Of a stretch of DNA of 30,856 bases, positions 7,459 to 23,221 are shown one piece after another. Origin of the DNA: a virus; IMG/VR virus record IMGVR_UViG_3300001849_000072, positions 1 to 30,856 of that record, one strand, 5' to 3'. Under the pieces are notes generated by a model, which did no database searches, was not told the origin of the DNA, and saw only the letters and a list, made by a program, of their open reading frames with translations. Numbering within the stretch: position 1 is the stretch's first letter; the number at the start of each line of letters is the position of its first letter. Position numbers and translations under genes: made by a program.

Positions 7459-7466
7459 TATTTATT
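7459..7466 (-). promoter_or_regulatory. Late-promoter-like box before the 620-residue gene
   Basis: The minus strand reads AATAAATA, one base from the T4 late consensus TATAAATA and a fit to the NATAAATA form described for T4-like cyanophages. It overlaps the dps stop codon and ends only four bases before the downstream ATG, so any message from it would be leaderless or nearly so. The match could be chance in AT-rich DNA. Confidence 0.4.
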
Positions 7467-7911
7467 TGAGATAGGAATCTAACATCCACTGATGCTTTCG
7501 ATGAGCATGAATTCGATCTTGAATAAAATTTGATAATCCAATTTCATTATTCATTTCAGCCAATCGATACACGGCCTGTAATGATTCCAATACAGACGTA
7601 TTACTCGCTCGCAATTCTAGTACCATTAAACGCACATCCGTGCCACCAACTACCATATCAGAATCCGAAATGGTCGCATATTGCGTGAGCGAATATAAGC
7701 CAAAAGGCGCATATGCATTTAATGTTCGAATAAATTCTGCAATGTCATCAGCCGAACCAAAGACATCTTCATAAATTTTTTCAAAAAAACCATGCATTTC
7801 GGCAAAATTTGAACCTTCAACGTTCCAATGAAAGCCATGAGCCTTAAAATACATTTGGTAAATATTAGCTAATAATACCTTTAAAGATGTCACTAATTCA
7901 GCTTGTTCCAT
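7462..7911 (-). CDS. dps: Dps-like mini-ferritin
   Basis: This 149-residue protein of the Dps (DNA-binding protein from starved cells) branch of the ferritins is close to the usual length of the family core. The signature AHGFHWNVEGSNFAEMH lies at residues 24-40. By alignment with E. coli Dps, all five inter-subunit ferroxidase ligands are present: His28, His40, Glu44, Asp55 and Glu59. Dps proteins form 12-subunit shells that oxidise iron with hydrogen peroxide, store ferric iron and limit Fenton damage to DNA. The protein lacks the long Lys-rich N-terminal tail that gives E. coli Dps its DNA binding, so iron/peroxide detoxification is the safer inference. It lies between the holin-like gene and the head-type genes, with ribosome site AAAGGA and a late-type box 30 bases upstream, suggesting late expression. 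Confidence 0.93.
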   Translation of the reverse strand: MEQAELVTSLKVLLANIYQMYFKAHGFHWNVEGSNFAEMHGFFEKIYEDVFGSADDIAEFIRTLNAYAPFGLYSLTQYATISDSDMVVGGTDVRLMVLELRASNTSVLESLQAVYRLAEMNNEIGLSNFIQDRIHAHRKHQWMLDSYLK

Positions 7912-7967: not shown

Positions 7968-8219
7968 TTAATTTGAGGGGTCAGATGGGCCACTTGGAGG
8001 GGCAAATTTCTCTAATCCGGTCATTCCCAAACCAGTTACCACCACATACATAATGGCATTGTAGATGTGTTCGGCAATATTAAACCCAAAAAACATATTT
8101 CCGACAAATCCAATAATCATCATTAATACACATAAAACGGTAACAATTCGTTTGGATGATAATGACCCATTTCTACCATCAGTAATGATAGATTTAATAT
8201 GGGCAAAAAAGTTTTTCAT
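7968..8219 (-). CDS. Holin-like two-helix membrane protein
   Basis: An 83-residue protein with a basic, soluble N-terminus (MKNFFAHIKSIITDGRNG), two hydrophobic helices (about residues 25-45, IVTVLCVLMMIIGFVGNMFF, and 52-70, IYNAIMYVVVTGLGM) and a short Pro/Ser-rich polar tail. This is the size and layout of a class II-type phage holin, which forms inner-membrane lesions that release or activate the endolysin. The start ATG overlaps the stop of the i-spanin gene (ATGA at 8216-8219), so the two are translationally coupled and sit in one lysis operon. The family was not identified by name. The T4 holin (gpT) is larger and has a periplasmic domain, so this would be a non-orthologous holin. Confidence 0.7.
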   Translation of the reverse strand: MKNFFAHIKSIITDGRNGSLSSKRIVTVLCVLMMIIGFVGNMFFGFNIAEHIYNAIMYVVVTGLGMTGLEKFAPPSGPSDPSN

Positions 8220-8749
8220 TTCTTCCTCTTTTTGGAATTTTCTGCATTAATACTGTCTACGGATTGCTGGTTGTCGATGATCCATTGCTGGAGGGCTGAC
8301 AATTGGTTGGTGTTTTGGATGCATCGGGCGTAGTTGGACACAATGACTCCAAGGGCTTGATTGTCTCTAATTCCTGAGGTGGTCTCATCAGCACTTCGGG
8401 TGGGGTCGGCATCACGAGCACTGGCACTTGAATCGTGGAGGTACACCCAACCAGAAGACATATCGTGCTGAGAAGGCACAACAGTTTCAGCTTGTTTAAG
8501 ATAGACATATTCTTTCTCCTTCACCGTTTGAACTTTATCAATGTATTTAATAACGACGCGCTCTTTAATTTCAGAATTCTTTTTTTCTAATTCTGTAATT
8601 TTTTTCGAGGCTTCAGCTTGAAACTGGGCTATTTCAACTTTAGCTTTATTGTGGCCTTTTTGGTATCCATATCCATATAAGGATACCGCTAATAGAAGAG
8701 CAGCACCTATTTTATATGGAAAGGGAATGGCTGAAAATAATGTTAACAT
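8216..8749 (-). CDS. i-spanin (Rz-like inner-membrane spanin)
   Basis: A 177-residue protein with one N-terminal membrane helix (about 12-28, IGAALLLAVSLYGYGYQ) followed by a long periplasmic coiled coil (about 34-90, FQAEASKKITELEKKNSEIK and onward). This is the Rz layout: a type II inner-membrane subunit that pairs with an outer-membrane lipoprotein to bridge the envelope and fuse the membranes in the last step of lysis of Gram-negative cells. The VPSQHDMSSGWVYLHDSSA segment (about 91-110) is typical of Rz-type proteins. Strong support comes from the o-spanin gene wholly embedded in another frame at 8257-8508. It follows the DUF5675 gene by three bases and is coupled to the holin-like gene downstream. 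Confidence 0.9.
   Translation of the reverse strand: MLTLFSAIPFPYKIGAALLLAVSLYGYGYQKGHNKAKVEIAQFQAEASKKITELEKKNSEIKERVVIKYIDKVQTVKEKEYVYLKQAETVVPSQHDMSSGWVYLHDSSASARDADPTRSADETTSGIRDNQALGVIVSNYARCIQNTNQLSALQQWIIDNQQSVDSINAENSKKRKK
8257..8508 (-). CDS. o-spanin (Rz1-like lipoprotein) embedded in the i-spanin gene
   Basis: This 83-residue protein lies entirely within the i-spanin gene in another frame. It starts with a classical lipoprotein signal: basic N-terminus, hydrophobic core (LKLLCLLSTICLL), and lipobox LVGC with the lipidated cysteine at residue 22. The mature part is rich in Pro, Thr and Ser (VPVLVMPTPPEVLMRPP), as in Rz1 proteins. It would be sent to the outer membrane by the Lol system and bind the i-spanin coiled coil across the periplasm. 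A strong ribosome site (AAGGAGAAAG) precedes its ATG inside the host gene. The fully embedded arrangement is known from lambda (Rz1 in Rz). Confidence 0.92.
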   Translation of the reverse strand: MSILNKLKLLCLLSTICLLVGCTSTIQVPVLVMPTPPEVLMRPPQELETIKPLESLCPTTPDASKTPTNCQPSSNGSSTTSNP

Positions 8750-10336: not shown

Positions 10337-11733
10337 ATATGAATCCTATGTGTCTTGGAGAAATCACGTTTAGTGAATACACTATCATCTTCGTCATCAT
10401 GAGACGTATGAGTAATATTGGCATCACTAATATTTTGTTGCTCGGACGGTGCTAAATCAAAGAGTTTCATTTTTCCCCGATCAATACCAAGCATGAATCG
10501 CTTATTCACTGAAGGATCATTATAACGATTCTTTAACTGCTTAATCATAATTTGATTAAGCTGATCTAGTTCTTCTGTGGCAATTAATGCAAACATAAAA
10601 TCGGCTGTTGCAGGCAATCCAAACGATTCAGATGTATCAGTAATTTCAACATCACTATTATCATAGCCTCCCCGAGTGGTTTGCGTAGCGGACACAATTG
10701 GCACATTCTGCTCAACTGCTAAACCACGCAATTCTTCAGCAATCGCTTTAATATATGTATACGAGTTAACATTGGAACTTGGTTTAAAACGGGAACTCGA
10801 ACAAATATTTAAATAATCTACAAAGATAATTTGTGGAACAAAATTCCGCTTTAATGCTAATTCAGATAACAATGTTTTAAAATGTCCAGCATGAGCCGCC
10901 GCTGTCGGATACTCTTTGATCACTAACTTACCTTCGGTGCCCTTTCGAATACGATCAATTCGATAATCAAATCGAGTTTTAGGAAGAGTTCGCAATTCCC
11001 CGATATTAATATCCATGAGATTCGCATCAATACGTTCAGCAATTCGTTCTTCAGACATTTCAAGGGTAATATATAATACATTAAATCCCTTGGCCAAATG
11101 ACTCGCGGCGACGTGGCACATGAACAAAGATTTGCCTACACCGGTACCCGCCAATGCAATATTCAAGGTTTTATTTGGTAAACCCCCATCAGTAATTTTA
11201 TTGAAGTATTCCAAATCAAAAGGCACCTTCATTTCTTTTCGATGATAGTATTCAAATCGCTGTTCAGCATTGTCTAAGTAATCATGACCAACATGATGGT
11301 CAAACCCTACACCTAAGGCTTGCTGAAGAATCGTCGGAATAGCATCTTGTTGATAATTTTTATCTGTGCCGTCAATAATTTGAATGCTTTGCACAATCGC
11401 ATTATATACCGCTTTATCTTTACAAAACTTTTCCGTTTCTTGCAACAACCACGAGATATCAGTTTCGCTTTCGGTCAGCGTTTCAATATCCGTAAAAACA
11501 GTTTTTGCATCATTTTCCGATACAGAACTATCATTTTGTACATCAATAAGAAGTGCCTGCTTCGAAGGAAGCGTATTATACTTCATAATATAGTGATGGA
11601 GTTTCTTAAATAGAATCCTCTCACTATTTTCTAAAAAATATTCTTCCTTTAAAAAAGGCAGAACTTTCCGTGCATATGTTTCATTGTAAAGAAGATGACT
11701 AAGAATGATCTTCTGTGTTGTCGTTGTCATCAA
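10333..11733 (-). CDS. 41: Replicative DNA helicase, T4 gp41 / DnaB type
   Basis: This 466-residue protein matches T4 gp41 at both ends and in the core. The N-terminus QKIILSHLLYNETYARKVLPF parallels the T4 start. A RecA-like core carries Walker A AGTGVGKS (195-202), then LEMSEERIAERIDANL, a Walker B strand IIFVDYLNI (about 303-311), and a downstream SATQTTRGG segment (motif H3-like). The protein forms a hexamer that moves 5' to 3' on the lagging strand and works with the gp61 primase; no primase gene is in this window. The start overlaps the small zinc-ribbon gene by 35 bases, and the stop is coupled to the next gene. Order uvsX - small zinc protein - 41 resembles that in T4-like cyanophages. 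Confidence 0.96.
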   Translation of the reverse strand: MMTTTTQKIILSHLLYNETYARKVLPFLKEEYFLENSERILFKKLHHYIMKYNTLPSKQALLIDVQNDSSVSENDAKTVFTDIETLTESETDISWLLQETEKFCKDKAVYNAIVQSIQIIDGTDKNYQQDAIPTILQQALGVGFDHHVGHDYLDNAEQRFEYYHRKEMKVPFDLEYFNKITDGGLPNKTLNIALAGTGVGKSLFMCHVAASHLAKGFNVLYITLEMSEERIAERIDANLMDINIGELRTLPKTRFDYRIDRIRKGTEGKLVIKEYPTAAAHAGHFKTLLSELALKRNFVPQIIFVDYLNICSSSRFKPSSNVNSYTYIKAIAEELRGLAVEQNVPIVSATQTTRGGYDNSDVEITDTSESFGLPATADFMFALIATEELDQLNQIMIKQLKNRYNDPSVNKRFMLGIDRGKMKLFDLAPSEQQNISDANITHTSHDDEDDSVFTKRDFSKTHRIHI

Positions 11734-11893
11734 TAGTTTCCCCGGACTTCATTTCTTCAAGAACTTCATCCCAAAAGTTTTCGATACACTCAGCACAGAT
11801 AAATGTTTTATTTTCTTCACTATCATGAAAACAAATACCTTCTGAGGTCTCTTCATCAATCGCAATATTACATCTAGAACAAACAGGCATCAT
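11699..11893 (-). CDS. Small zinc-ribbon protein between uvsX and gp41
   Basis: A 64-residue, very acidic protein with two CxxC pairs: Cys5/Cys8 and Cys33/Cys36, plus Cys21 and His23 between them. The four paired cysteines would bind one zinc in a ribbon. The C-terminus is almost all acidic. The start ATG overlaps the UvsX stop (ATGA), and the end overlaps the gp41 start by 35 bases, so it is cotranslated with the recombination and replication genes. It may be a protein-protein adaptor; T4 has no clear equivalent that I can name. Confidence 0.78.
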   Translation of the reverse strand: MMPVCSRCNIAIDEETSEGICFHDSEENKTFICAECIENFWDEVLEEMKSGETIDDNDNTEDHS

Positions 11894-12954
11894 TCCTCCT
11901 CTCCAATTGTGGCAAAGGCGTCCTCAATTTCTTTATCGTTCACAGACGTTTCCATCAACGCATTGGAAGACATGCAATACGTATCTTCAATCCACTTTCG
12001 AAAAGAGGCTTGAGAAAGAATCTTAAACCAAAATTCCTTGTTATCTGTATCCTTCTGCCGATACTTAGGTTCTTCGCCTGCAATCTGATACCAACCATTC
12101 TGCGGCTTAATCACATGTCCCGATTCAAGTGCCATTTCCAACAACCCCGACCACTTGGAAATACCACCATCAAAGGTCACAGAAATTGGAATCTTGGACT
12201 TTTCTTTCACATATCGCGACTTCTCAACATTGATAATAAAATTATATCCTACGACATCGGTGCCTTCCTTTTCTTGCTGCCGACCCAGAATAAAAATATT
12301 ATCCGCCGAATAGTATACGCCTGTACCACCAGAAACAATATCCTTCGGATATAAACCAATTTCCTTATACGTATGGTTTACGACAATCGCAGGAATATCC
12401 TTAATTGTCAAATGCGGTGTAATCATACGAAAGAGTGATTTCATTTGCTTGGCTCTGGTCATGTCTGCGACAGACTTACCCTCTAAGGCATCTTCGACTT
12501 CCTTCTTTGATGCCAAATTGCCTACAGAGTCCACAATGATAATAATATGGTCGCCACGCTCAATATTATTCATTTGCTGCATAATATCATGCTTGAGTTG
12601 TTCAATATCCGTAATCGGTGTATGAAGCACACGATTCGTATCAATATTGAAAGCATCAAAATATGACTGAGGACTTCCGAATTCAGAATCGTAAAATAAA
12701 ACGACCGCATCATCATACTTATCCACATATGTCTTGGCTAACAGAAGTGCAAAAGCGGTCTTAAAATGTTTGGATGGTCCTGCAAACACAGTTAATCCGG
12801 GAGTCAACCCACCATCGACTCGGCCAGAAAGAGCCACATTCAATGCGGGAACATTAGTCATAATCATGTCCTTCTTATTGAAGAACTTACTTTGACTTAA
12901 AACAGATGCGTCTTTAATGGTGGAATTTTTTTGTAACTTATCAAGTAGTTTCAT
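11890..12954 (-). CDS. uvsX: UvsX recombinase (RecA-like)
   Basis: A 354-residue RecA/Rad51-type recombinase. The phage-type Walker A GPSKHFKT is at 59-66 (T4 has GPSKSFKS), preceded by NVALSGRVDGGLTPGLTVFA. Then come YDSEFGSP (the catalytic Glu region), Walker B HIIIIVDSVGNL (about 136-147), MTRAKQMKSLFR, and a loop-2 region ending VSGGTGVYYSADNIF. UvsX coats single-stranded DNA, with UvsY as mediator, and drives strand invasion in recombination-dependent replication and repair. A strong ribosome site (AAGGAGA) precedes the ATG, nine bases after the gp43 stop. The gene order 43 - uvsX - (zinc protein) - 41 supports the call. Confidence 0.97.
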   Translation of the reverse strand: MKLLDKLQKNSTIKDASVLSQSKFFNKKDMIMTNVPALNVALSGRVDGGLTPGLTVFAGPSKHFKTAFALLLAKTYVDKYDDAVVLFYDSEFGSPQSYFDAFNIDTNRVLHTPITDIEQLKHDIMQQMNNIERGDHIIIIVDSVGNLASKKEVEDALEGKSVADMTRAKQMKSLFRMITPHLTIKDIPAIVVNHTYKEIGLYPKDIVSGGTGVYYSADNIFILGRQQEKEGTDVVGYNFIINVEKSRYVKEKSKIPISVTFDGGISKWSGLLEMALESGHVIKPQNGWYQIAGEEPKYRQKDTDNKEFWFKILSQASFRKWIEDTYCMSSNALMETSVNDKEIEDAFATIGEEE

Positions 12955-12962
12955 ACGTCTCC

Positions 12963-15476
12963 TTAAAATAAACTATCAAGAGATGACTGCGGCTCGGTCG
13001 TCCAATTGAGACCTTCAATAATACTCTGTAGTGGTTCAATAAATGTTTTTTGAAACATCATATCATAGTCTACGAATCGATGCAATTCAAATTCTTTCGG
13101 CAACTTAGACATAAAAGCCATACAGTTTTGTCGAAGTGGATTTCGTTCATTCAAATACAAAAATTTAATTTTGTTACCTTCCTCAATCTTTTCATACTTT
13201 TGTGTTATCTGTTTTTCGACAATCATCTTGTTATATAGCAAAGATGCTCGAACATGCATCGGCGTGCCTTTTGTATAAATCTCGGTGGCATGAGCATACT
13301 TTTCTAACCCATTGACACTTCGAGGAAACGCAATATCTTCTGGCGACAGGGTAAAGAATTTGGTTCGCATCTCTTGAATAAACGAATGTAAGGTCGATTC
13401 TTTTCCATCAAGACAAATCTTTACCGCATCCTTCAGGGCATCGCGAATAGCCGAAGGCGTGGAAGACCGAACGATTTCTAAGCCCATCACTTTTAATTTT
13501 GGAGTGGCGTATCGAACCCCTTCATTATCATAGACATTCAACGCATACCGCTTCTTAGAAACCCACAAACCTTTGTCCGCAATCGCTTCTCGCTTGAACG
13601 TAATTTTCTGTTGAAAGGCATTAGTATATTGAGCAATATCTTGACAGACCTCATCAAGTACCTCTTGGATTTTGGTCTTACAAATCGTGTCAATAATATC
13701 AATAATTTTATCTTTGGGAAGTTCTGCGTAATACTTTTTCACTAGTGGATCAAGTGTCACGTAACATGAATCGGTGTCAGAGTAAAAACTAAAATCAAAA
13801 TCTGTCGTGCCACATACAGTATTTAAATATGCATTTAATGCATTCCCCACATGTCGAATAATATACTGCCCGGTCATCGTAATACCTTCGGCTACACGGT
13901 CATCATAATATCGAAAATATTCTGACCCATACGCACCGAATAACGAATTAAGCTGAATCTTACGAGCCATCTGGAAATTATTAAACCGAGAGATATCTTT
14001 CAGTACAGCAGGATTCTTTGTGCTTTCATATTCCTTTTGAGCCAGAATCATTTGCTTTTTATAATCTTGACGCTCTTGAAACATGCGTTCAACAATTTCT
14101 GGAAAGAATCCTAGCTTGTTGGTTCGATAGCAATATCCATTTGCCGTCATACAATATTCCTCATCTCGCAAGGAATCAAGTGTATATTCTTTCTTTAGCA
14201 AACCTTCAACATTAGTATTCCTTCGCTTTGTCATGTCATATTCAAACATTTCCGGAGACATGTTATATTGCATAATGATTGACGGATACAGCGATGTGGC
14301 ATCAAATGAGACAACCCATTCATAGTGACCGGAACGAGGTTCTTTGACATATGCACCTTCAAAAATACGTGCCACTCGCTTCGTCGTTTTGTTGGGAATA
14401 ATCACGTTCTTTTTCAAGAGATGATTATAGACGATACAATCCCATGTCCGGACTTGCGAAAAGATATCAGAATAATTACATTTCGCATCATACGCCATCG
14501 TCAACAGCAATTCGATCAATTTTAATTTGTCTTCAAGCTGGTCTACAAGCTCTACGTCAATAATGTTATATTCGGTGAACAACTGCCAATCTTTTGTATA
14601 CAGTTCTTTCAGCGTATCATAACCATGTTCTAATTTCTTTCGCTTCAATTCCACAGAAGCAATATGATCAAGTTTATAACTTTCTTGGTTGGCATACGTA
14701 AACTTTTTATACAAATCAAGATAGTCAATAATTTCTACACCAAACAAATCATAGACCGTGACATACTTATTATTGATAGTCTTATTGATAGATTTGACGG
14801 CTCCCCATGGACTAAACTTTTTAGTTGCGTCTTCGCCCATAAGATAACGCATACGCGAAATCAAATACGGAATGTCAAACATATTCACATTCCATCCTGT
14901 CACAATATCCGGATACTCTTGCGTATAGAATTGCATAAAAGATTCCAGCAATTCCTGTTCAGATGAACATTGAGTATATTTCACCAGATGGGCACTTTTT
15001 GACGTAGACATTTTGGTCGCGTCAAACGGACGACACCCCCACGAATAAATTTTCTTCGTTGAAAGATTTCGTAGAGTAATAAGAAGAATTTCTTCAGTGG
15101 GATTATCAATTTGCGGAAAGCCCTGCTCTGAGGACGTTTCAATATCTAGCGTATAAACGAGAATAGATGAGATATCCCATTCAATATCGTGTGGATAGTA
15201 TTTACTGAGGAATTGGTATCCATAATTAGTTTGACCGTGAATAGAAAAATTATCCACATCAGAATACGTTTCCACAAACTGCTTACACGTATTAATATCT
15301 TCAAATTCAATACACTGAAGAGATTCACCATGAAGGGATGACCATTCGGTTGGCTCGGCACTATTCACAAAGAGTGACGGTTTAAACCCGACACGCCGAG
15401 TAAAACGTTTGCCATTAAAAACGCCACGCAACAAAATATTGTTTCCACGCTGTTTTGCAAACGTATAGAAATTCAT
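12963..15476 (-). CDS. 43: DNA polymerase gp43 (family B)
   Basis: An 837-residue family B polymerase with proofreading, shorter than T4 gp43 (about 898). Exonuclease motifs: Exo I DIE (111-113), Exo II GWNVNMFDIPYL (Asp201), Exo III YNIID (303-307). Polymerase motifs: motif A SFDATSLYPSI (390-400), motif B KIQLNSLFGAYGS (506-518), motif C YSDTDS (565-570), and the KKRYAL segment that contacts DNA. The C-terminus SSLDSLF matches the T4 clamp-binding tail (ASLDFLF), so it should bind the gp45 ring. All catalytic aspartates are present and there is no split or intein. It is the first gene after a strong terminator, and its ribosome site (GGTTGA) is weak. In T4 RegA represses several early messages; whether this one is a target is unknown. 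Confidence 0.98.
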   Translation of the reverse strand: MNFYTFAKQRGNNILLRGVFNGKRFTRRVGFKPSLFVNSAEPTEWSSLHGESLQCIEFEDINTCKQFVETYSDVDNFSIHGQTNYGYQFLSKYYPHDIEWDISSILVYTLDIETSSEQGFPQIDNPTEEILLITLRNLSTKKIYSWGCRPFDATKMSTSKSAHLVKYTQCSSEQELLESFMQFYTQEYPDIVTGWNVNMFDIPYLISRMRYLMGEDATKKFSPWGAVKSINKTINNKYVTVYDLFGVEIIDYLDLYKKFTYANQESYKLDHIASVELKRKKLEHGYDTLKELYTKDWQLFTEYNIIDVELVDQLEDKLKLIELLLTMAYDAKCNYSDIFSQVRTWDCIVYNHLLKKNVIIPNKTTKRVARIFEGAYVKEPRSGHYEWVVSFDATSLYPSIIMQYNMSPEMFEYDMTKRRNTNVEGLLKKEYTLDSLRDEEYCMTANGYCYRTNKLGFFPEIVERMFQERQDYKKQMILAQKEYESTKNPAVLKDISRFNNFQMARKIQLNSLFGAYGSEYFRYYDDRVAEGITMTGQYIIRHVGNALNAYLNTVCGTTDFDFSFYSDTDSCYVTLDPLVKKYYAELPKDKIIDIIDTICKTKIQEVLDEVCQDIAQYTNAFQQKITFKREAIADKGLWVSKKRYALNVYDNEGVRYATPKLKVMGLEIVRSSTPSAIRDALKDAVKICLDGKESTLHSFIQEMRTKFFTLSPEDIAFPRSVNGLEKYAHATEIYTKGTPMHVRASLLYNKMIVEKQITQKYEKIEEGNKIKFLYLNERNPLRQNCMAFMSKLPKEFELHRFVDYDMMFQKTFIEPLQSIIEGLNWTTEPQSSLDSLF

Positions 15477-15490
15477 AATATATTCAACCT

Positions 15491-15537
15491 AAATAAAAAA
15501 CGTGTGTTAGACTTCAAACTACTAGTCTAACACACGT
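15491..15537 (-). terminator. Intrinsic terminator after the Sm-like gene
   Basis: A perfect 14-base inverted repeat (15500-15513 with 15524-15537; arm ACGTGTGTTAGACT) with a 10-base loop. It is followed on the minus strand by TTTTTTATTT. It ends the transcript of the DUF1552 and Sm-like genes 15 bases before gp43 begins, so gp43 needs read-through or a promoter close by; none with both boxes was found. Confidence 0.93.
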
Positions 15538-15542
15538 GGGTC

Positions 15543-15863
15543 TTACTTGACAAGCGTTGGTGTAAATCCGGTGGGTGCAACAGAGGATGACGGCATAACA
15601 ATTCCACTTCCATACCGTGAATTATATTCATTCTTCAAATCTGTTTCAGGAAAATATAGAGACATAACACATGCACTCTTCACAGTAACCTTGCTATCTT
15701 CGGCCCATGGAAGAAATGGACCCAAGGCAATTCCATATGTATTGTTTCCCTGTGGAACCATCATAATCAAACATGGCTTATTCAGTAAAACCATATTATC
15801 TTCTTCGTGAACATCTGCAATAATATCTTCACCCGTCATCAACTTCACACACTTAATATTCAT
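15543..15863 (-). CDS. Sm-like (LSm/Hfq-fold) phage protein, copy 2
   Basis: A 106-residue protein of a family widespread in T4-like cyanophages: KLMTGEDIIADV at residues 7-18, NKPCLIMMVP (28-37), then LGPFLPWAED (47-56) and a C-terminal VMSLYFPETDLKNEYN helix with a GSGIVMP tail. The strand-G-(E/D)-I strand pattern is that of an Sm1 motif. To my recollection an Sm-like crystal structure of putative cyanophage origin belongs to this type of protein. Such proteins would form rings and may bind RNA; no target is known. A diverged relative is encoded at 27125-27544. A good ribosome site (GAGGAAA) lies 5' of the ATG. It is the last gene before the strong terminator. Confidence 0.75.
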   Translation of the reverse strand: MNIKCVKLMTGEDIIADVHEEDNMVLLNKPCLIMMVPQGNNTYGIALGPFLPWAEDSKVTVKSACVMSLYFPETDLKNEYNSRYGSGIVMPSSSVAPTGFTPTLVK

Positions 15864-15872
15864 TTTGTTTCC

Positions 15873-17180
15873 TCACAATAAATTAATTTTGCCTGTACTT
15901 GGTCCCATTTTTTCTATGTCTACACCGGCTACTTCTCCCATACCGACTAATAAATTCGCTACAGGAGTATCTTTCTGCACCATCAAATGACGATTACCTT
16001 TCAGTCGTCCATTCGCCCCACCAACCAACAGTGCTGGAGGATTGCTTCGATCATGCACGTTGCCATTACTCATACCTGCGCCAAAGTATATCATAGAATG
16101 GTCTAACATGGAACCAGAACCTTCTTTGGTTTCTGATAACCGTCGAACCAATTCGGCCAACTTCGCAACATGATAGGTATTAATTTTATTGTATTTGGCT
16201 AACGTCTCAGGATTATTCGCATGGTGTGAAATACTGTGATGAGCATCAGGTACACCGATATGAGCATAACTCCGACTACTCGCTTCATGACCAACCATAA
16301 AGGTCGCCACACGACTAATATCAGCACGATAGGCCAGATACATTAAATCATACGTAATTGTCATCTGTTCATCAAAGAGTTCGGGATTGACCGGAGCAGT
16401 GACATTTGGTAAATCGTTGGCTCGATTACTCATACGTTGCAACTTGGCTTCCACGTCTCGAATGTTGGTTAACCATTCATCCATAATAGTGCGATCTGAG
16501 ACGGGCAGTGTGCGTGAAAGACGATTGGATTCAGAAATAATTGAATCTAAAATACTTCTCTTCAACCGATTATTTCGTACCCGTTGTTCCGTCGTCCCTG
16601 CTTCACCAAACATTCGTTCAAACGTAATAGATGGAACTACGGAAATCGGAAGCGGAGTGGTCTCATCACGCCATGCCAACGAATTAAAGAACGCACAGGG
16701 ATACCCGTCACACGCACCAGCCGAGGTACCCATATCTTCCGTTCCCAATTCAATAGAACGTAATGGAGTATCATCGGCCACCTTGTCGGCAATAAACTGA
16801 TCAAGCGATTTCTTGGAAACCAACGCCGTAAAATCCCCACTCTTTCCTGCTGGACCAACGGCATTGAGCCACGCTGCACTGGCTCCAAGATGAATAGACC
16901 CGGACGGCGCACGCAATCCACTTACCGTGACTATCGAGTCACGAAAATCTTCTAGCGGACGCATGATGGGTTTAAATTCAAATGCCGCATCAGTAGTATC
17001 AGGATGCCAATACTCAGGGAAGATACCATTCGGAACATAAACGGCTCCGAAACGTAAGGGGTGACTACTCTCTTGGGCAAACGCAGGGGTCATACTATCA
17101 AGGAATGGAAGTGTCACAGCTACCGAACCCAAACCCCGTAATACGGTACGACGAGAAAGATGCTTTTTAGTAACAATCAT
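15873..17180 (-). CDS. Tat-exported DUF1552 (HXXSHH) protein
   Basis: A 435-residue cellular-type protein. The N-terminus is a twin-arginine signal: SRRTVLR at 9-15, hydrophobic core GLGSVAVTLPFLD, and a likely cut after AFA (residue 35). The mature part begins RFGAVYVPNG and carries the family hallmark HXXSHH at 315-320 (HSISHH, preceded by another His), then YFGAGMSNGN and PPALLVGGANGRLKG. The length matches full cellular DUF1552 proteins (PF07586). Their function is unknown; they occur with DUF1588/1592-type cytochrome-like proteins and are related to DUF1501, of alkaline-phosphatase-like fold, so a periplasmic hydrolase is possible. Hand counts give 43-53% GC in three 60-base samples against 37-40% in flanking genes, suggesting transfer. 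It starts 18 bases after a terminator and has no internal stop. Confidence 0.93.
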   Translation of the reverse strand: MIVTKKHLSRRTVLRGLGSVAVTLPFLDSMTPAFAQESSHPLRFGAVYVPNGIFPEYWHPDTTDAAFEFKPIMRPLEDFRDSIVTVSGLRAPSGSIHLGASAAWLNAVGPAGKSGDFTALVSKKSLDQFIADKVADDTPLRSIELGTEDMGTSAGACDGYPCAFFNSLAWRDETTPLPISVVPSITFERMFGEAGTTEQRVRNNRLKRSILDSIISESNRLSRTLPVSDRTIMDEWLTNIRDVEAKLQRMSNRANDLPNVTAPVNPELFDEQMTITYDLMYLAYRADISRVATFMVGHEASSRSYAHIGVPDAHHSISHHANNPETLAKYNKINTYHVAKLAELVRRLSETKEGSGSMLDHSMIYFGAGMSNGNVHDRSNPPALLVGGANGRLKGNRHLMVQKDTPVANLLVGMGEVAGVDIEKMGPSTGKINLL

Positions 17181-17190
17181 AATCGAACCC

Positions 17191-17223
17191 TAAAAAAAGG
17201 GCCACAGTATTTTTCTGTGGCCC
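17191..17223 (-). terminator. Intrinsic terminator after hsp20
   Basis: A 9-base perfect stem (17199-17207 with 17215-17223, arm GGGCCACAG) and a 7-base loop. On the minus strand it is followed by a run of seven T. It separates hsp20 from the DUF1552 gene. It leaves only 18 bases for the DUF1552 leader. Confidence 0.93.
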
Positions 17224-17234
17224 GTATTCAGTCT

Positions 17235-17750
17235 TTACTCTACTAAGAGAGTCTTGTCACCAGAACTTACTTTTCGCGGAGTTGTTGTATCCGCGATGGG
17301 ATAAGTCTTGGGCTTTTTAGATTCGGGAATAATATTCTTCAAGAGAATACGCAAAATGCCATTCCCAAACTCTACACTTTGCACTTCTACTGTGTCAAGA
17401 AGGGTAAACTGTCGCGTAAAAGAACGTGCAGAAATTCCTTTATGCATAAATTTACTTGATTCACGTTCTTCCTGTTGTGTCCCATTAATAAACAAGACAC
17501 CCTCTTTTCGAACAACATCAAGGTTTTTAATATCCCACCCGGCAAGTGCGACTTCGATAATATAGGTTTCGTCGTCGTCTTGAATAATATTATACGGAGG
17601 ATAGTTTGTAGCATTCATTTTTGTGCCAGCAAATCGTTCGAATAAACGATGATGACCAATAAAAAATGGATCAAACTTATGGGGATCAGTTAAAAAACTT
17701 GTGTCGAATACTAAGGAAGGGAACTGTTCAGTAGTTGTTGTTGTAGTCAT
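17235..17750 (-). CDS. hsp20: Small heat-shock protein (Hsp20 / alpha-crystallin)
   Basis: A 171-residue small heat-shock protein. The alpha-crystallin domain runs from about residue 52 (YNIIQDDDETYIIEVALAGW) through the beta-strands DVVRKEGVLFINGTQ and HKGISARSFTRQFTL to the conserved NGILRILLKN-type strand (about 128-138; the GIL form of the family A-x-x-x-n-G-v-L signature). The N-terminal arm is Phe-rich. The C-terminal tail has the KTYPI motif (about 146-150; Ile-x-Ile-like). These proteins hold unfolding proteins in a refoldable state without ATP. T4-like cyanophages commonly carry an hsp20. It lies between RegA and a terminator under a combined sigma70/late promoter. The ribosome site is strong (AAAAAAGGAGA). 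Confidence 0.95.
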   Translation of the reverse strand: MTTTTTTEQFPSLVFDTSFLTDPHKFDPFFIGHHRLFERFAGTKMNATNYPPYNIIQDDDETYIIEVALAGWDIKNLDVVRKEGVLFINGTQQEERESSKFMHKGISARSFTRQFTLLDTVEVQSVEFGNGILRILLKNIIPESKKPKTYPIADTTTPRKVSSGDKTLLVE

Positions 17751-17785
17751 GATTGTCTCCTTTTTTAAGCGAGTAAATAATTATA

Positions 17786-17806
17786 TGCTACCCATTAGGC
17801 ATAGCA
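17786..17806 (-). other. Imperfect hairpin in the hsp20 leader
   Basis: On the minus strand TGCTA (17802-17806) pairs with TAGCA (17786-17790), with a mismatch and a two-base CC/GG extension around a short loop. It sits at the 5' end of the predicted ~57-base leader of hsp20, far from the ribosome site, and may stabilise the message. It is weak structurally. Confidence 0.35.
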
Positions 17807-17812
17807 CAAAAT

Positions 17813-17843
17813 TATTTATATCATGAAACTACTCACAAGTCAA
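17813..17843 (-). promoter_or_regulatory. Overlapping sigma70 and late promoter for hsp20
   Basis: On the minus strand TTGACT (17838-17843), a 17-base spacer and TATAAA (17815-17820) form a good sigma70 promoter. The -10 box is part of an exact TATAAATA late box (17813-17820). It sits immediately after the RegA stop codon. Both types of start would give a leader of about 57 bases. hsp20 could thus be expressed both early and late. Confidence 0.75.
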
Positions 17844-17844
17844 G

Positions 17845-18261
17845 TTATTTCTTTCGACCGATATTATATTTGGGAACAAGATTCCATTCAGATTTTTCTT
17901 TAAAGGCAATAATTTTAATCTGATTTAATGGCGCACAATCTTCATAGGATTGAGGATTCAGAATGGTCACTAAACCCCAATCTTCCAACAACTTAGCGAT
18001 AGCATTTCGACGTTGAATATCGTTTAAATCGATATCGGCTTTCTTGCCATCTAAAGAAAAGAGTTCTTTAAAATGAACAATAAAATATCGTCCCTGCTTA
18101 TGCAAAATATGGCATGACTGGAATAAAGTTTTGTCTTTTCGTGATGCAACACCAATTCGAGATAGAGTTTCTCGAATCTTTAAGAAATCATCAGGACTAT
18201 TTAATGTTATCTCAAGTGCTACATAACCGGGGTAATTAATACGGAAAAAATCCACACTCAT
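17845..18261 (-). CDS. regA: RegA translational repressor
   Basis: A 138-residue protein that matches T4 RegA along its whole length: EITLNSPDDFLKIRETLSRIG, DKTLFQSCHIL, YFIVHFKELFSLDG, LLEDWGLV and SEWNLVPKYNIG (each parallels the T4 sequence). RegA is a small RNA-binding protein that blocks ribosome access at the start sites of many early phage messages, and also represses its own. Compared with T4, it has about 16 extra residues at the N-terminus (MSVDFFRINYPGYVAL). The start ATG overlaps the gp62 stop codon (ATGA at 18258-18261), so the two are translationally coupled, as in T4 where regA follows 62. Confidence 0.96.
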   Translation of the reverse strand: MSVDFFRINYPGYVALEITLNSPDDFLKIRETLSRIGVASRKDKTLFQSCHILHKQGRYFIVHFKELFSLDGKKADIDLNDIQRRNAIAKLLEDWGLVTILNPQSYEDCAPLNQIKIIAFKEKSEWNLVPKYNIGRKK

Positions 18262-18713: not shown

Positions 18714-19651
18714 TCGAAATCCACCATAGACATAATGTCTGTTAAACACGCGACCATATTAATTTCTTGGTCGGCTACAAAGGCAGACTTATACTGATAA
18801 TCTGCCAAAGTCAAGACCAATTTTGGAATATCATTCTTCTTAGCACAATGGGCGTTATCAAAAATACGCCTAAACAAGGTAGAATAATCTACGTCCTGAT
18901 TTTCAGCGACCCACTGGCGCATCTCCGTCCAATTCTTTCGCTTCAAAATATCCATGAGGGTTTGAATAAAGTAATCTTCGTTTGAACCGAGAATACCAGA
19001 ATCAATATGACCATTCACGGAATATCGCTGCACCTCATTCAGAATGCGGCGATAATCAGGGAAAAACCTCTTGATAATTTCAACCAATACCTTTTCATCA
19101 AAGGTAACGTTTTCCTGAGAGAGAATCACCTTTAATCTCTTCAGAAATTTACCCGCCATGACAGGTTTATCCGCTTTGGTCAAATTAAAATCAATTACCG
19201 TTGAACGACTATGGAGCGGTTCAATGATACGATTCTTATAGTTACAGGTAAAAATGAATCGACAATTTTGATTAAATTCTTCGATGAACGCTCGAAGGGC
19301 GGGCTGAATAGAATTCGGATTCAAATAATCGGCTTCATCAATAATTACCACACGAGGCTTGCCCTCATACGAAAACGATGATGCAAACGATTTAATCTTA
19401 GTCCGAAGAACATCAATACCATTTTCTTCAGAACCGTTAATAATAATATAATCGCAATTCAATTGTTCACAAATTGCTCTGGCAATCGTGGTCTTGCCCA
19501 CACCAGATTTACCAGAAAGCAACATGGTAGGAATTTGGCCCTTTTCAATGAATTGCTGAAACATGACCTTTTGCTTTTCCGGAATGATACAATCTTCAAC
19601 TGTCTTTGGTCTATACTTTTCCACCCACAGAAATAACTCTTTCTCGCTCAT
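18710..19651 (-). CDS. 44: Clamp-loader ATPase gp44
   Basis: A 313-residue AAA+ ATPase. The N-terminus LWVEKYRPKTVEDCIIPE matches clamp-loader box II. Walker A SGKSGVGKT lies at 46-54, Walker B VVIIDEAD at 101-108 (DEAD box), sensor 1 FIFTCNYKNRI near 132-142, and the arginine-finger box is HSRST (147-151), where most loaders have SRC. With gp62 it loads gp45 onto primed DNA using ATP. Its start is overlapped by 41 bases by the end of the epimerase gene, and a good ribosome site (GAGGTGAAGA) precedes the ATG. Its end is coupled to gp62. Confidence 0.97.
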   Translation of the reverse strand: MSEKELFLWVEKYRPKTVEDCIIPEKQKVMFQQFIEKGQIPTMLLSGKSGVGKTTIARAICEQLNCDYIIINGSEENGIDVLRTKIKSFASSFSYEGKPRVVIIDEADYLNPNSIQPALRAFIEEFNQNCRFIFTCNYKNRIIEPLHSRSTVIDFNLTKADKPVMAGKFLKRLKVILSQENVTFDEKVLVEIIKRFFPDYRRILNEVQRYSVNGHIDSGILGSNEDYFIQTLMDILKRKNWTEMRQWVAENQDVDYSTLFRRIFDNAHCAKKNDIPKLVLTLADYQYKSAFVADQEINMVACLTDIMSMVDFE

Positions 19652-20360
19652 TCTTCACCTCATCCATAATATTATATTGCGGTTCCCATCCGAGAGAACG
19701 CATGTGATTGATGTTAGCACATGTTGACCAACGTTCACCAGAGACTTCTTTTATCGGAAGACCATGATCAGGTTCAAATCCTGCGGCAACATCACACACT
19801 GAAACAGGTTTGCCGGTACCGATATCAATCACCCCCGTCTCTTCATATTTTTCTAACAGAATATCAATCGCGGTCACGACATCATTAATATGAGTAAAAT
19901 CTCGTAAATGATTTGTCAGATATGTAACCTTTTGAGTAATCAATCGATCATAAAACATATCAGGTCGAGAATCTGGTCCATAGACCGTATGAAACCGCAT
20001 TCCTAATGTTGTTTTAGGAGCAATGGTTTCCATAACTTTTTTAGTGGTCGCATATGGATTTAACCACCATTCATAGACCGATGAACTTGAGGCATAGATA
20101 CACCGAACATTCACCTTACTACACCATGTAAAAATAGATTTACTGGCTTGCACGTTAACGTTCCAGTAGGCTTCTGGTTGTTGAAATGATGTTCGTACTC
20201 CGGTTAGAGCCGCTAGATGTAGCACCACATCAGGATAAAATGTTTTTGGCAACCAATGACAAATATCACCGTCATATCGAATAAATGTATACTTTGATGA
20301 AAGTTGGTTAACAACGTTTCGACCAATGAAACCTTGCCACCCCGTGATTAATACTTTCAT
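19611..20360 (-). CDS. NAD-dependent sugar epimerase/dehydratase
   Basis: A 249-residue extended short-chain dehydrogenase. The Rossmann signature is GWQGFIG (7-13, the GxxGxxG pattern), followed by VVLHLAALTGV (46-55), a substrate-side ASSSSVYEWW, and the catalytic pair Tyr103-x3-Lys107 (PYATTKK). The family member would oxidise or epimerise a nucleotide sugar; UDP-glucose/GDP-mannose types are about 310-340 residues, so this one has a shortened C-terminal substrate domain. It is inserted between the sliding clamp and clamp loader, starting 2 bases after the gp45 stop. It may supply an activated sugar for the glycosyltransferase at 9211-9954; this is inference. Confidence 0.87.
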   Translation of the reverse strand: MKVLITGWQGFIGRNVVNQLSSKYTFIRYDGDICHWLPKTFYPDVVLHLAALTGVRTSFQQPEAYWNVNVQASKSIFTWCSKVNVRCIYASSSSVYEWWLNPYATTKKVMETIAPKTTLGMRFHTVYGPDSRPDMFYDRLITQKVTYLTNHLRDFTHINDVVTAIDILLEKYEETGVIDIGTGKPVSVCDVAAGFEPDHGLPIKEVSGERWSTCANINHMRSLGWEPQYNIMDEVKNERERVISVGGKV

Positions 20361-21668: not shown

Positions 21669-22313
21669 CTACGACTTGACGAATTTCGCTTTCTTGGCAT
21701 TTTTCTTCTTCTCACCCTTTAATTGACTAATGACATCTTTACGAATCTTTTGATATTTCTTCGACAAACGATTCGTGACTTCTTCTGCCGTCATCCAAAT
21801 GTCTTTATTGTCAATGATACCATTAATTTCATCATCTGTCAAAAAGTCTTTATATGTTTCTTTAAATAAATGCTCTGACCATTTTCTACCATGGATCACT
21901 TGTTCGAACATTTCCCCACCCTTGCCATATGTTCCACCAGAATAATTATGAAACATAAACATGGAGTGGTCACAAATATGCATTTCTGTACCCGCTAAAA
22001 ATAGGAGGGTCGCTGCGCTAAAACACATTCCTTCTACTGAAGTAATAATACTTGCTTTCGTTTCACTCATGACTTTCAAAAATTGAATCGCGGTAAACAT
22101 ATCTCCTCCATAACTATTAATATGGAGAAAAATATGATCTTGCTCTGACGCTGAAGAAATGATTTGAAACCACTCAATATAATTATCCGGAGATTTGATA
22201 TCGCCTGACAAATAGAAATGATAGGTTTTACTATTAAAATTTTGAAAATACTGGGAAGAAGAAGAACTTTCACAGGTGACATCTTCAGCTTTAATCGTTT
22301 TGTGTTCGGTCAT
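21669..22313 (-). CDS. ClpP-like serine peptidase
   Basis: A 214-residue protein of the ClpP/crotonase peptidase fold. The region HINSYGGDMFTAIQF (64-78) is the ClpP beta-strand/Gly loop; the catalytic Ser99 lies in GMCFSAATLLFLAG; His122 lies in MFMFHNYSGG; Asp171 is in DNKDIWMTAEEV. The Ser-His-Asp spacing (23 and 49) is close to that of E. coli ClpP (25 and 49). The C-terminus is a Lys-rich tail (KKKNAKKAKFVK). No Clp ATPase is nearby. It may assemble with a host ClpX/ClpA, or be a free-standing peptidase; the T4-like capsid protease (gp21) is of a different family and is not seen here. Its ribosome site is GAGG. Confidence 0.9.
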   Translation of the reverse strand: MTEHKTIKAEDVTCESSSSSQYFQNFNSKTYHFYLSGDIKSPDNYIEWFQIISSASEQDHIFLHINSYGGDMFTAIQFLKVMSETKASIITSVEGMCFSAATLLFLAGTEMHICDHSMFMFHNYSGGTYGKGGEMFEQVIHGRKWSEHLFKETYKDFLTDDEINGIIDNKDIWMTAEEVTNRLSKKYQKIRKDVISQLKGEKKKNAKKAKFVKS

Positions 22314-22656
22314 AAAACCTCGTAACGGCTAAAATTTTTTCAATTTGCTTATCTATAACAGCCAAGCGATTTGGCCAATGAATGTATTCCTTTTCAGGAT
22401 TTTTCTTTAAATTATATAATAATGGCAAAATAAGGTCTTCAGCCTGCTTCAATTTTTCAGCCACATCCTGTTCTATCAAATTGCGATGCTCTTGCAATAA
22501 TGTGCTATTATCTAATGATAATAGTCGATTTTCAATTTCGTATAACTTTTGTAGGACTTCATCCGATGTCTGTGGAGCCGAGACTTGAGGGGTCTCTGTG
22601 GCTGTTAATGGCTCATCAACAGCAGTAAATCCAAAATCAAAATTACTTAGATCCAC
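22291..22656 (-). CDS. Conserved T4-like phage coiled-coil protein
   Basis: A 121-residue protein conserved in T4-like cyanophages: it begins VDLSNFDFGFTAVDE, has a middle coiled coil (LQKLYEIENRLLSL), and ends with NPEKEYIHWPNRLAVIDKQIEKIL. Role unknown; it may act near the deformylase and ClpP genes. I choose the GTG at 22656 as start because a strong ribosome site (GGGAGG) lies nine bases upstream and the homologous proteins begin near SNFDFGF. The frame is open further upstream, but that part lies inside the deformylase gene. Its end overlaps the ClpP-like start by 23 bases. Confidence 0.82.
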   Translation of the reverse strand: MDLSNFDFGFTAVDEPLTATETPQVSAPQTSDEVLQKLYEIENRLLSLDNSTLLQEHRNLIEQDVAEKLKQAEDLILPLLYNLKKNPEKEYIHWPNRLAVIDKQIEKILAVTRFYDRTQND

Positions 22657-23221
22657 GTTGTCGTGCCTCCCGATATTTAGTTTTGGCGAATCGCAGAAGA
22701 TGCTGGCGTAAATTTGGTTCGTCAATACTTTTCTTGATATATTTCATGAAATCTTTAAAAGCGATTTCTAATTTTAATGGTCCTGCATAATCAGTAAAAC
22801 GCTTACCAATCATCAAATCAAATTCATGAAGAATGGTTCGAGCCTCGATACCTCCAAACATTTCAATCACAAATTCTCCCTGTTCATTTTGATAGGACAC
22901 TGTAATCTCCTTTGACCGTGATAAAGGTACCCAGAATCCCGGCAGACTAATACAGCCTTCACTCATAACCACTTCATCTTTAGATTTATGCGAAATACGA
23001 GGATTAAAAAAACACTTCTTTTGACCATTAAAGGACAACACAAACACACGATAGGGTAAACCGACTTGCGGGGCCGATAATCCTAACCCACCCCATTTTT
23101 CAAGATGAGCAAAAAGATTCTCTACCAATTCTTTCGGATCAATATCAGGCGTCTCGAAATTGAATTGTAATGGCAGCGTTCGAAGTGATGGATGAAGAAA
23201 TTCGACTAATTGTAATTCCAT
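22643..23221 (-). CDS. Peptide deformylase-like protein lacking one metal histidine
   Basis: A 192-residue member of the peptide deformylase family. Motif 1 GLGLSAPQVG is at 45-54, motif 2 EGCISLPG at 88-95 with metal ligand Cys90, and motif 3 at 132-136 is HEFDL. Normally motif 3 is HExDH, with both histidines binding the metal. Here the second is Leu136 (codon TTG at 22814-22816), while His132 and the catalytic Glu133 remain. Deformylases remove the formyl group from new proteins; T4-like cyanophages are known to carry active ones. This substitution would be expected to weaken metal binding or abolish activity. It sits behind an exact late promoter. Confidence 0.92.
   Translation of the reverse strand: MELQLVEFLHPSLRTLPLQFNFETPDIDPKELVENLFAHLEKWGGLGLSAPQVGLPYRVFVLSFNGQKKCFFNPRISHKSKDEVVMSEGCISLPGFWVPLSRSKEITVSYQNEQGEFVIEMFGGIEARTILHEFDLMIGKRFTDYAGPLKLEIAFKDFMKYIKKSIDEPNLRQHLLRFAKTKYREARQRGSK

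Follow-up and report, generated by a model that had tools for sequence, protein, structure and literature searches.

The 30,856-nucleotide stretch of viral DNA analyzed here (the window, in the following) belongs to a T4-like phage that encodes, inside its replication region, an intact protein of the DUF1552 family. This is a phage gene of cellular origin bearing a Tat-type signal that is homologous to the signals of its cellular relatives, and we have little doubt that it is a real gene, that its predicted product is of the exported type and that phages have captured genes of this family repeatedly.

The DUF1552 gene and its product

The gene (positions 15873..17180, minus strand; also present in the independent contig L001) starts with ATG and encodes a 435-aa protein with predicted Tat export. 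The PF07586 (HXXSHH) profile matches this protein with an E-value of 4.9e-75 and 253 bits, against a curated cut-off of 30, and is covered over its full length (1-307 of 307). The motif that gives the domain its name is intact as HSISHH (residues 315-320; 16221..16238, minus strand) and is evident both in the sequence and in alignments A1 and A5, with H315 and H319 invariant in A5 and near-invariant in A8. At an identity of about 60%, the window protein retains 83 of the 92 positions that do not vary among the 21 cellular sequences in A1.

Residues 1-35 (MIVTKKHLSRRTVLRGLGSVAVTLPFLDSMTPAFA; 17076..17180, minus strand) comprise a twin-arginine signal peptide (SRRTVLRG ... AFA|QE), as judged from the sequence and the alignments. 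The N-terminus (MIVTKKHLSRRTVLRG...TPAFA|QE) is collinear with the corresponding Tat signals in the cellular homologs, the first 16 residues align to these signals without gaps, and R10 and R11 of the twin-arginine motif are invariant in alignments A1, A5 and A8. An earlier note made from the sequence alone had described a full-length 435-residue PF07586 protein with an intact twin-arginine signal and without a known function in T4-like phages, and each of these statements holds.

Genomic context and transcription unit

The T4-like core replication genes gp43, gp44, gp45, gp62, regA and uvsX were all matched in PHROGs, and related contigs show the same order of T4-like replication genes as the window. 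On the minus strand, the order is regA, hsp20, terminator, DUF1552, Sm-like gene, terminator, gp43 and uvsX, with regA, gp62, gp44 and gp45 located upstream of hsp20. The hsp20 gene (17235..17750, minus strand; PF00011, phrog_432), identified with both Pfam and PHROGs, is upstream of DUF1552, and the Sm-like gene (15543..15863, minus strand; phrog_527, with the function listed there as unknown) starts 9 bp downstream of it; the gp43 DNA polymerase gene (12963..15476, minus strand; phrog_262) marks the T4-like replication region.

An intrinsic terminator follows hsp20 (17192..17223, minus strand; identical in L001). It consists of a hairpin at 17199-17223 (minus strand) with 9 pairs followed by T7, and the T run ends 11 nt before the ATG of DUF1552. 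A second intrinsic terminator follows the Sm-like gene (15500..15537, minus strand), and the folding of both is much more stable than that of shuffled sequence (z -4.2 and -5.0, respectively). Thus, the position between hsp20 and the Sm-like gene and the preceding terminator, as originally read from the sequence, are both confirmed. Given that terminators precede DUF1552 and close the unit behind the Sm-like gene, these two genes form a separate two-gene unit. No promoter is evident in the 11-nt gap between the hsp20 terminator and the DUF1552 ATG; a sigma-70-like match is located within hsp20. The late-promoter motif TATAAATA was considered as the DUF1552 promoter and rejected: it sits upstream of hsp20 and occurs across the window at a frequency that does not clearly exceed chance expectation.

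Elsewhere in the window, there is a gene for an Rz-like inner spanin (8216..8749, minus strand), with an outer-spanin lipoprotein nested in another frame at 8257-8508; this nested pair implies that the host should possess an outer membrane and a periplasm. Further host-type genes of this phage encode a Dps-like ferritin (window 7462-7911), a nucleotide-sugar epimerase (19611-20360), a ClpP-like protease (21669-22313) and a peptide deformylase (22643-23221). A 227-aa ORF at 16-699 showed no significant Pfam or PHROG match.

Integrity of the locus and base composition

With the family otherwise absent from reference phages, assembly chimerism or bacterial contamination of the contig has to be considered as the source of the gene. 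For the window, this explanation is refuted and we assign it next to no weight; it may still apply to L162, another DUF1552-bearing contig described below. The IMG/VR contig L001, which comes from a different metagenome, covers window positions 11192-17995 (6.8 kb) at 99.84% identity, including both junctions of the gene (15873 and 17180), at which the earlier note had advised a check for chimerism, and differs from the window by 11 SNPs, none of them in the DUF1552 gene; the phage-like GC3 of the gene argues in the same direction.

The same note had also drawn attention to the GC content of the gene. The overall GC is indeed higher than in the neighbors (0.45 vs 0.38-0.39), whereas the reading of this excess as a sign of recent foreign transfer is ruled out by the GC3 of 0.37, which falls within the range of the phage genes (0.26-0.41, except for a gp23 fragment with 0.50). 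Because the GC3 is phage-like, the excess is attributable to amino-acid composition rather than to recent transfer. In the Acidobacteria homologs of the window clade, GC3 is 0.72-0.96, the low-GC exception, L021, belonging to another group. The gene either has resided in the phage long enough for adaptation or derives from an unsampled low-GC donor.

The hsp20-Sm slot in related phages

The gap between hsp20 and the Sm-like gene was measured in 42 phage loci; among these, only the window and L001 carry DUF1552 in this slot. In the closest relatives (L036, L037 and L081-L083), hsp20 and the Sm-like gene are nearly adjacent, with 12-159 bp between them. No DUF1552 was found in fifteen longer viral records or in G006-G009. 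Several relatives possess a nuclease gene on the opposite side of the Sm-like gene, that is, between this gene and gp43: an SNase in L030, L036, L037, L082 and L097, and an Endonuclease_NS in L081 and L083. Sec-type signals are present on the SNases of L030 (345-791) and L036 (4584-5030) and on the Endonuclease_NS proteins of L081 (7452-8096) and L083 (1616-2263), and none is evident in L037, L082 and L097; the signal-bearing nucleases may act on incoming DNA, on host DNA or in scavenging. The neighborhood of the Sm-like gene appears to be a site of cargo uptake, with part of the cargo predicted to be exported.

DUF1552 in other phages

A tblastn search of the window protein against 50,697 phage records yielded no match, no PHROGs family matches the window DUF1552, and the DUF1552 proteins of L175 and L162 had no match among reference phages either. 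In IMG/VR, scans with the window protein or a narrow alignment returned only L001, and a broader alignment returned L162; onward searches with the L162 protein led to L164 and L165, and searches with the latter two to L175, L176 and L177. The search of viral databases that the earlier note proposed thus leaves the reference phages empty and yields further T4-like phages with DUF1552 in IMG/VR, so that absence of similar genes from all other phages, which together with breaks in coverage at the junctions would have spoken against the note's reading, is not what is found: L162, L164, L165 and L175/L176/L177 carry it.

In L162, the DUF1552 gene is flanked by gp23 and two homing endonucleases, and its GC3 is 0.61, vs 0.24-0.38 in the neighbors; this copy, known from one contig and discordant in GC3, has the appearance of a recent capture. 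L164 contains two DUF1552 genes along with gp6- and gp25-like baseplate genes, and L165 is a relative of L164 in which DUF1552 is cut by the contig end. L175, L176 and L177 represent one phage from three metagenomes, with 99.9% identity across 15 kb; the core genes on the L175 contig are gp23, gp41, gp43-47, gp55, gp62, regA, uvsW and uvsX. The DUF1552 reading frames are intact in all phage lineages found (the L165 fragment ends at the contig edge), and in the window, L164 and L165 their GC3 is near that of the phage itself.

Several features of these contigs were recorded in passing. In L164 and L165, DUF1552 lies beside runs of ORFs with signal-like N-termini (L171:6858-11801 for the L164 contig and L172:1-8385 for the L165 contig), which include cohesin-domain proteins, and L165 also has a signal-bearing Endonuclease_NS near DUF1552. 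An ORF of about 130 aa directly upstream of DUF1552 in L175 (L175:5706-6098) contains a twin-arginine-like stretch (LSRRSFLTGAAF) and shows a weak zinc-ribbon match. A protein with the conserved segment YQGRTVxLxKPxRSxDGKHKFYV... is common to the window phage (window 1432-2343), L164 (L170:18701-19000), L165 (L173:1390-1635) and L175 (L175:9819-10718); in the window and L175 it corresponds to phrog_7595.

Number of captures and selection

In AU tests, a single clade of all phage DUF1552 proteins was rejected (p 3e-5 with five rows and 6e-5 with six rows), whereas L164, L165 and L175 as one clade remained compatible with the data (p 0.40, six rows); the groups were defined after the loci had been seen, and some branches are long, with uncertain attachment points. 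Because a single origin is rejected and the L164/L165/L175 clade is compatible, these trees point to at least three captures of DUF1552 by T4-like phages, namely those in the window, in L162 and in the L164/L165/L175 group. The captured proteins are most similar to Acidobacteriota subfamilies. For L164a compared with the L165 fragment, dN/dS is about 0.11, a rough value given that dS is 1.8, near saturation, and this ratio indicates purifying selection on DUF1552 in that phage lineage.

These data bear on the possibility that DUF1552 is a passenger, acquired accidentally and of no advantage to the phage. That the version found in the window occurs in only one phage population and that the L162 copy looks recent (GC3 0.61 vs 0.24-0.38) would fit such an origin; nevertheless, the intact frames, the phage-like GC3 values of the window, L164 and L165 copies, the duplication in L164, the dN/dS of about 0.11 and the repeated independent capture already disfavor it, and we consider it very unlikely.

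Cellular relatives and the predicted host

Scanning 84,980 species of bacteria and archaea identified 27 loci, nearly all in Acidobacteria records, with the best at about 60-62% identity. In the maximum-likelihood tree with cellular homologs, a placement that the earlier note had recommended, the window protein is nested inside an Acidobacteria clade (99% support) on a branch of 0.5. The Acidobacteriota proteins of L003, L006, L008 and L009 show 61-62% full-length identity to the window protein, and no closer donor, with an identity above 62%, emerged from searches of 396 genomes from the G002 phylum and 369 from the G003 class. The nearest cellular relatives of the L175 protein, in a search within Acidobacteriota, are 61-64% identical to it. 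Among the Acidobacteriota genomes examined, single ones contain up to 23 DUF1552 copies over the Pfam cut-off. The L006 record is titled Acidimicrobiia; its DUF1552 sits among Acidobacteriota, its neighbors within the class include the Acidobacteria record G001, and the title may be wrong.

The host of the window phage is plausibly a bacterium with an outer membrane that belongs to the Acidobacteriota, an assignment drawn from gene phylogeny as opposed to direct linkage. Few phages of Acidobacteriota are known, and the present data suggest that these bacteria may be hosts of T4-like phages.

The PSCyt3 partner

In L006, L007, L016, L021, L025 and L029, DUF1552 follows a gene for a PSD/PSCyt3 protein (DUF1592/1588/1595, and in most cases also DUF1587/1585), and an ankyrin-repeat gene precedes PSCyt3 in L006, L007 and L021. 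The order ankyrin, PSCyt3, DUF1552 thus also occurs in L021, a record titled SAR86 cluster bacterium with 44% GC. In the two genomes compared, the gene immediately upstream of DUF1552 and in the same orientation is PSCyt3 in 10 of 10 cases in G002 and in 4 of 5 in G003, for a total of 14 of 15. This pairing agrees with the published remark that PSCyt3 genes usually neighbor a family of unknown function; the same work links them to carbohydrate metabolism and sulfatase genes (PMC5615132). PSCyt3 was detected in none of the seven viral records, all of which are fragments, such that the partner could lie elsewhere in the respective genomes, and a scan of IMG/VR for relatives of the PSCyt3 partner found none. 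Repeated capture without the cytochrome implies that the DUF1552 half is useful either alone or together with host partners.

Predicted fold and candidate site

A second AlphaFold2 model, built from the broader alignment, reached pLDDT 81.7 and pTM 0.85 (pLDDT 65 for the first model). Its top PDB matches are an S1 carbohydrate sulfatase, a phosphonate monoester hydrolase and LtaS (E 6e-4 to 5e-3, TM 0.36-0.42), and the five best matches all belong to the alkaline-phosphatase/sulfatase superfamily, with probabilities of 0.91-1.00 and TM of only about 0.4; the weaker first model produced similar matches. A sequence search against solved structures returned nothing useful, and a viral structure library contained no convincing match to the model. 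The structure comparisons suggest a distant, modest resemblance to the sulfatase/alkaline-phosphatase fold, and to this extent they support the alkaline-phosphatase-like fold that the earlier note had raised.

In the alkaline-phosphatase superfamily, the fold of which is that of PhoA, the first strand usually ends in acidic metal ligands. In the model, this strand ends in P-N-G instead, and therefore catalysis of the alkaline-phosphatase type is not assured; the conserved residues H97, D127, H315, H319 and H376 could form a different site. This detail weighs on the idea that the protein works in the periplasm as a phosphatase or sulfatase and scavenges phosphate or sulfate for the infected cell, an explanation which we regard as improbable. 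The fold matches to sulfatases and to phosphonate monoester hydrolase, as well as the presence of phoA beside pstS in T4-like cyanophages (PMC3037559), would favor such scavenging; however, the first strand of the model does not show the usual acidic metal ligands, and the vicinity of the gene in the window yielded no gene for phosphate uptake.

Proposed role

We propose, tentatively and with slightly less than even confidence in the mechanism as a whole, that the window gene encodes a host-derived, Tat-exported periplasmic protein that acts on sugars in trans with host cytochromes. The protein would be made and would fold in the host cytoplasm during infection, would be exported in the folded state by the host's own Tat system and would then act in the periplasm, with a fold like that of sulfatases and alkaline phosphatases. 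There, it would most likely cooperate in trans with the resident PSCyt3 cytochromes of the host, because the phages bring only the DUF1552 half of the pair. As a result, the periplasmic handling of sulfated or phosphorylated sugars, whether from the envelope or scavenged, might be raised or redirected for phage production, and DUF1552 would be an exported auxiliary metabolic gene in a role comparable to that of phage phoA and pstS.

A serious rival, not far behind this in-trans reading although doubtful in its own right, is that the exported protein is an effector that modifies or shields some structure at the cell surface or in the periplasm and so excludes later phages, or that it aids lysis control. 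T4 itself secretes the periplasmic inhibitor Spackle gp61.3 (PMC7650644), nucleases beside the Sm-like gene bear Sec-type signals in several relatives (L030, L036, L081 and L083), L165 has its signal-bearing Endonuclease_NS near DUF1552, envelope enzymes such as LtaS are among the fold relatives, and the lack of the cytochrome partner suggests that the protein acts by itself. Against this, the PHROGs search, which is distinct from a direct comparison with Spackle or Imm, revealed no similarity to these or other known exclusion proteins, and the window protein matches a cellular family over its full length and retains most of the conserved residues, which suggests that the ancestral activity was kept as well. 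A broader formulation, in which DUF1552 without the cytochrome is a recurrent, Tat-exported effector of T4-like phages that remodels the envelope or periplasm and is often encoded within or close to loci for other exported phage proteins, nucleases among them, might apply, although we would not favor it. DUF1552 probably helps T4-like phages to act on the outer layers of infected cells, given that unrelated T4-like viruses have captured it at least three times.

DUF1552 is a large uncharacterized family of exported proteins. A limited search of open-access literature, which does not prove that none exists, revealed neither a publication on DUF1552 in phages nor a biochemical function for any member of the family. 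The repeatedly captured phage copies offer a compact and testable way into the function of the family, and Tat export of such a large folded protein, as predicted here, would be an addition to what T4-like phages may do to their hosts. The takeover strategy that the earlier note saw in such export is a hypothesis.

Comparison with known systems

The Acidobacteriota DUF1552 proteins of L003, L006, L008 and L009 share the Tat signal and the motif with the window protein, whereas their genes have a GC content of 64-68%, compared with 45% for the phage gene; cellular DUF1552 genes adjoin a PSCyt3 gene, and the window gene lacks this neighbor and is found beside hsp20 and the Sm-like gene instead. 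The SNases and Endonuclease_NS proteins of the sister phages L030, L036, L081 and L083 are likewise cargo with export signals next to the same Sm-like gene, but they belong to nuclease families, carry Sec-type signals and are encoded on its opposite side. T4 Spackle gp61.3, a 97-aa lysozyme inhibitor with a cleaved 22-residue signal that acts in the host periplasm (PMC7650644), is a T4 protein exported to the periplasm, as is predicted for DUF1552; no similarity between the two was detected. The phoA and pstS genes of T4-like cyanophages (PMC3037559) are, like DUF1552, host-type genes for periplasmic proteins, although they represent other protein families and are linked to phosphate stress. 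This precedent shows that host-type functions of the periplasm are indeed found in T4-like phages.
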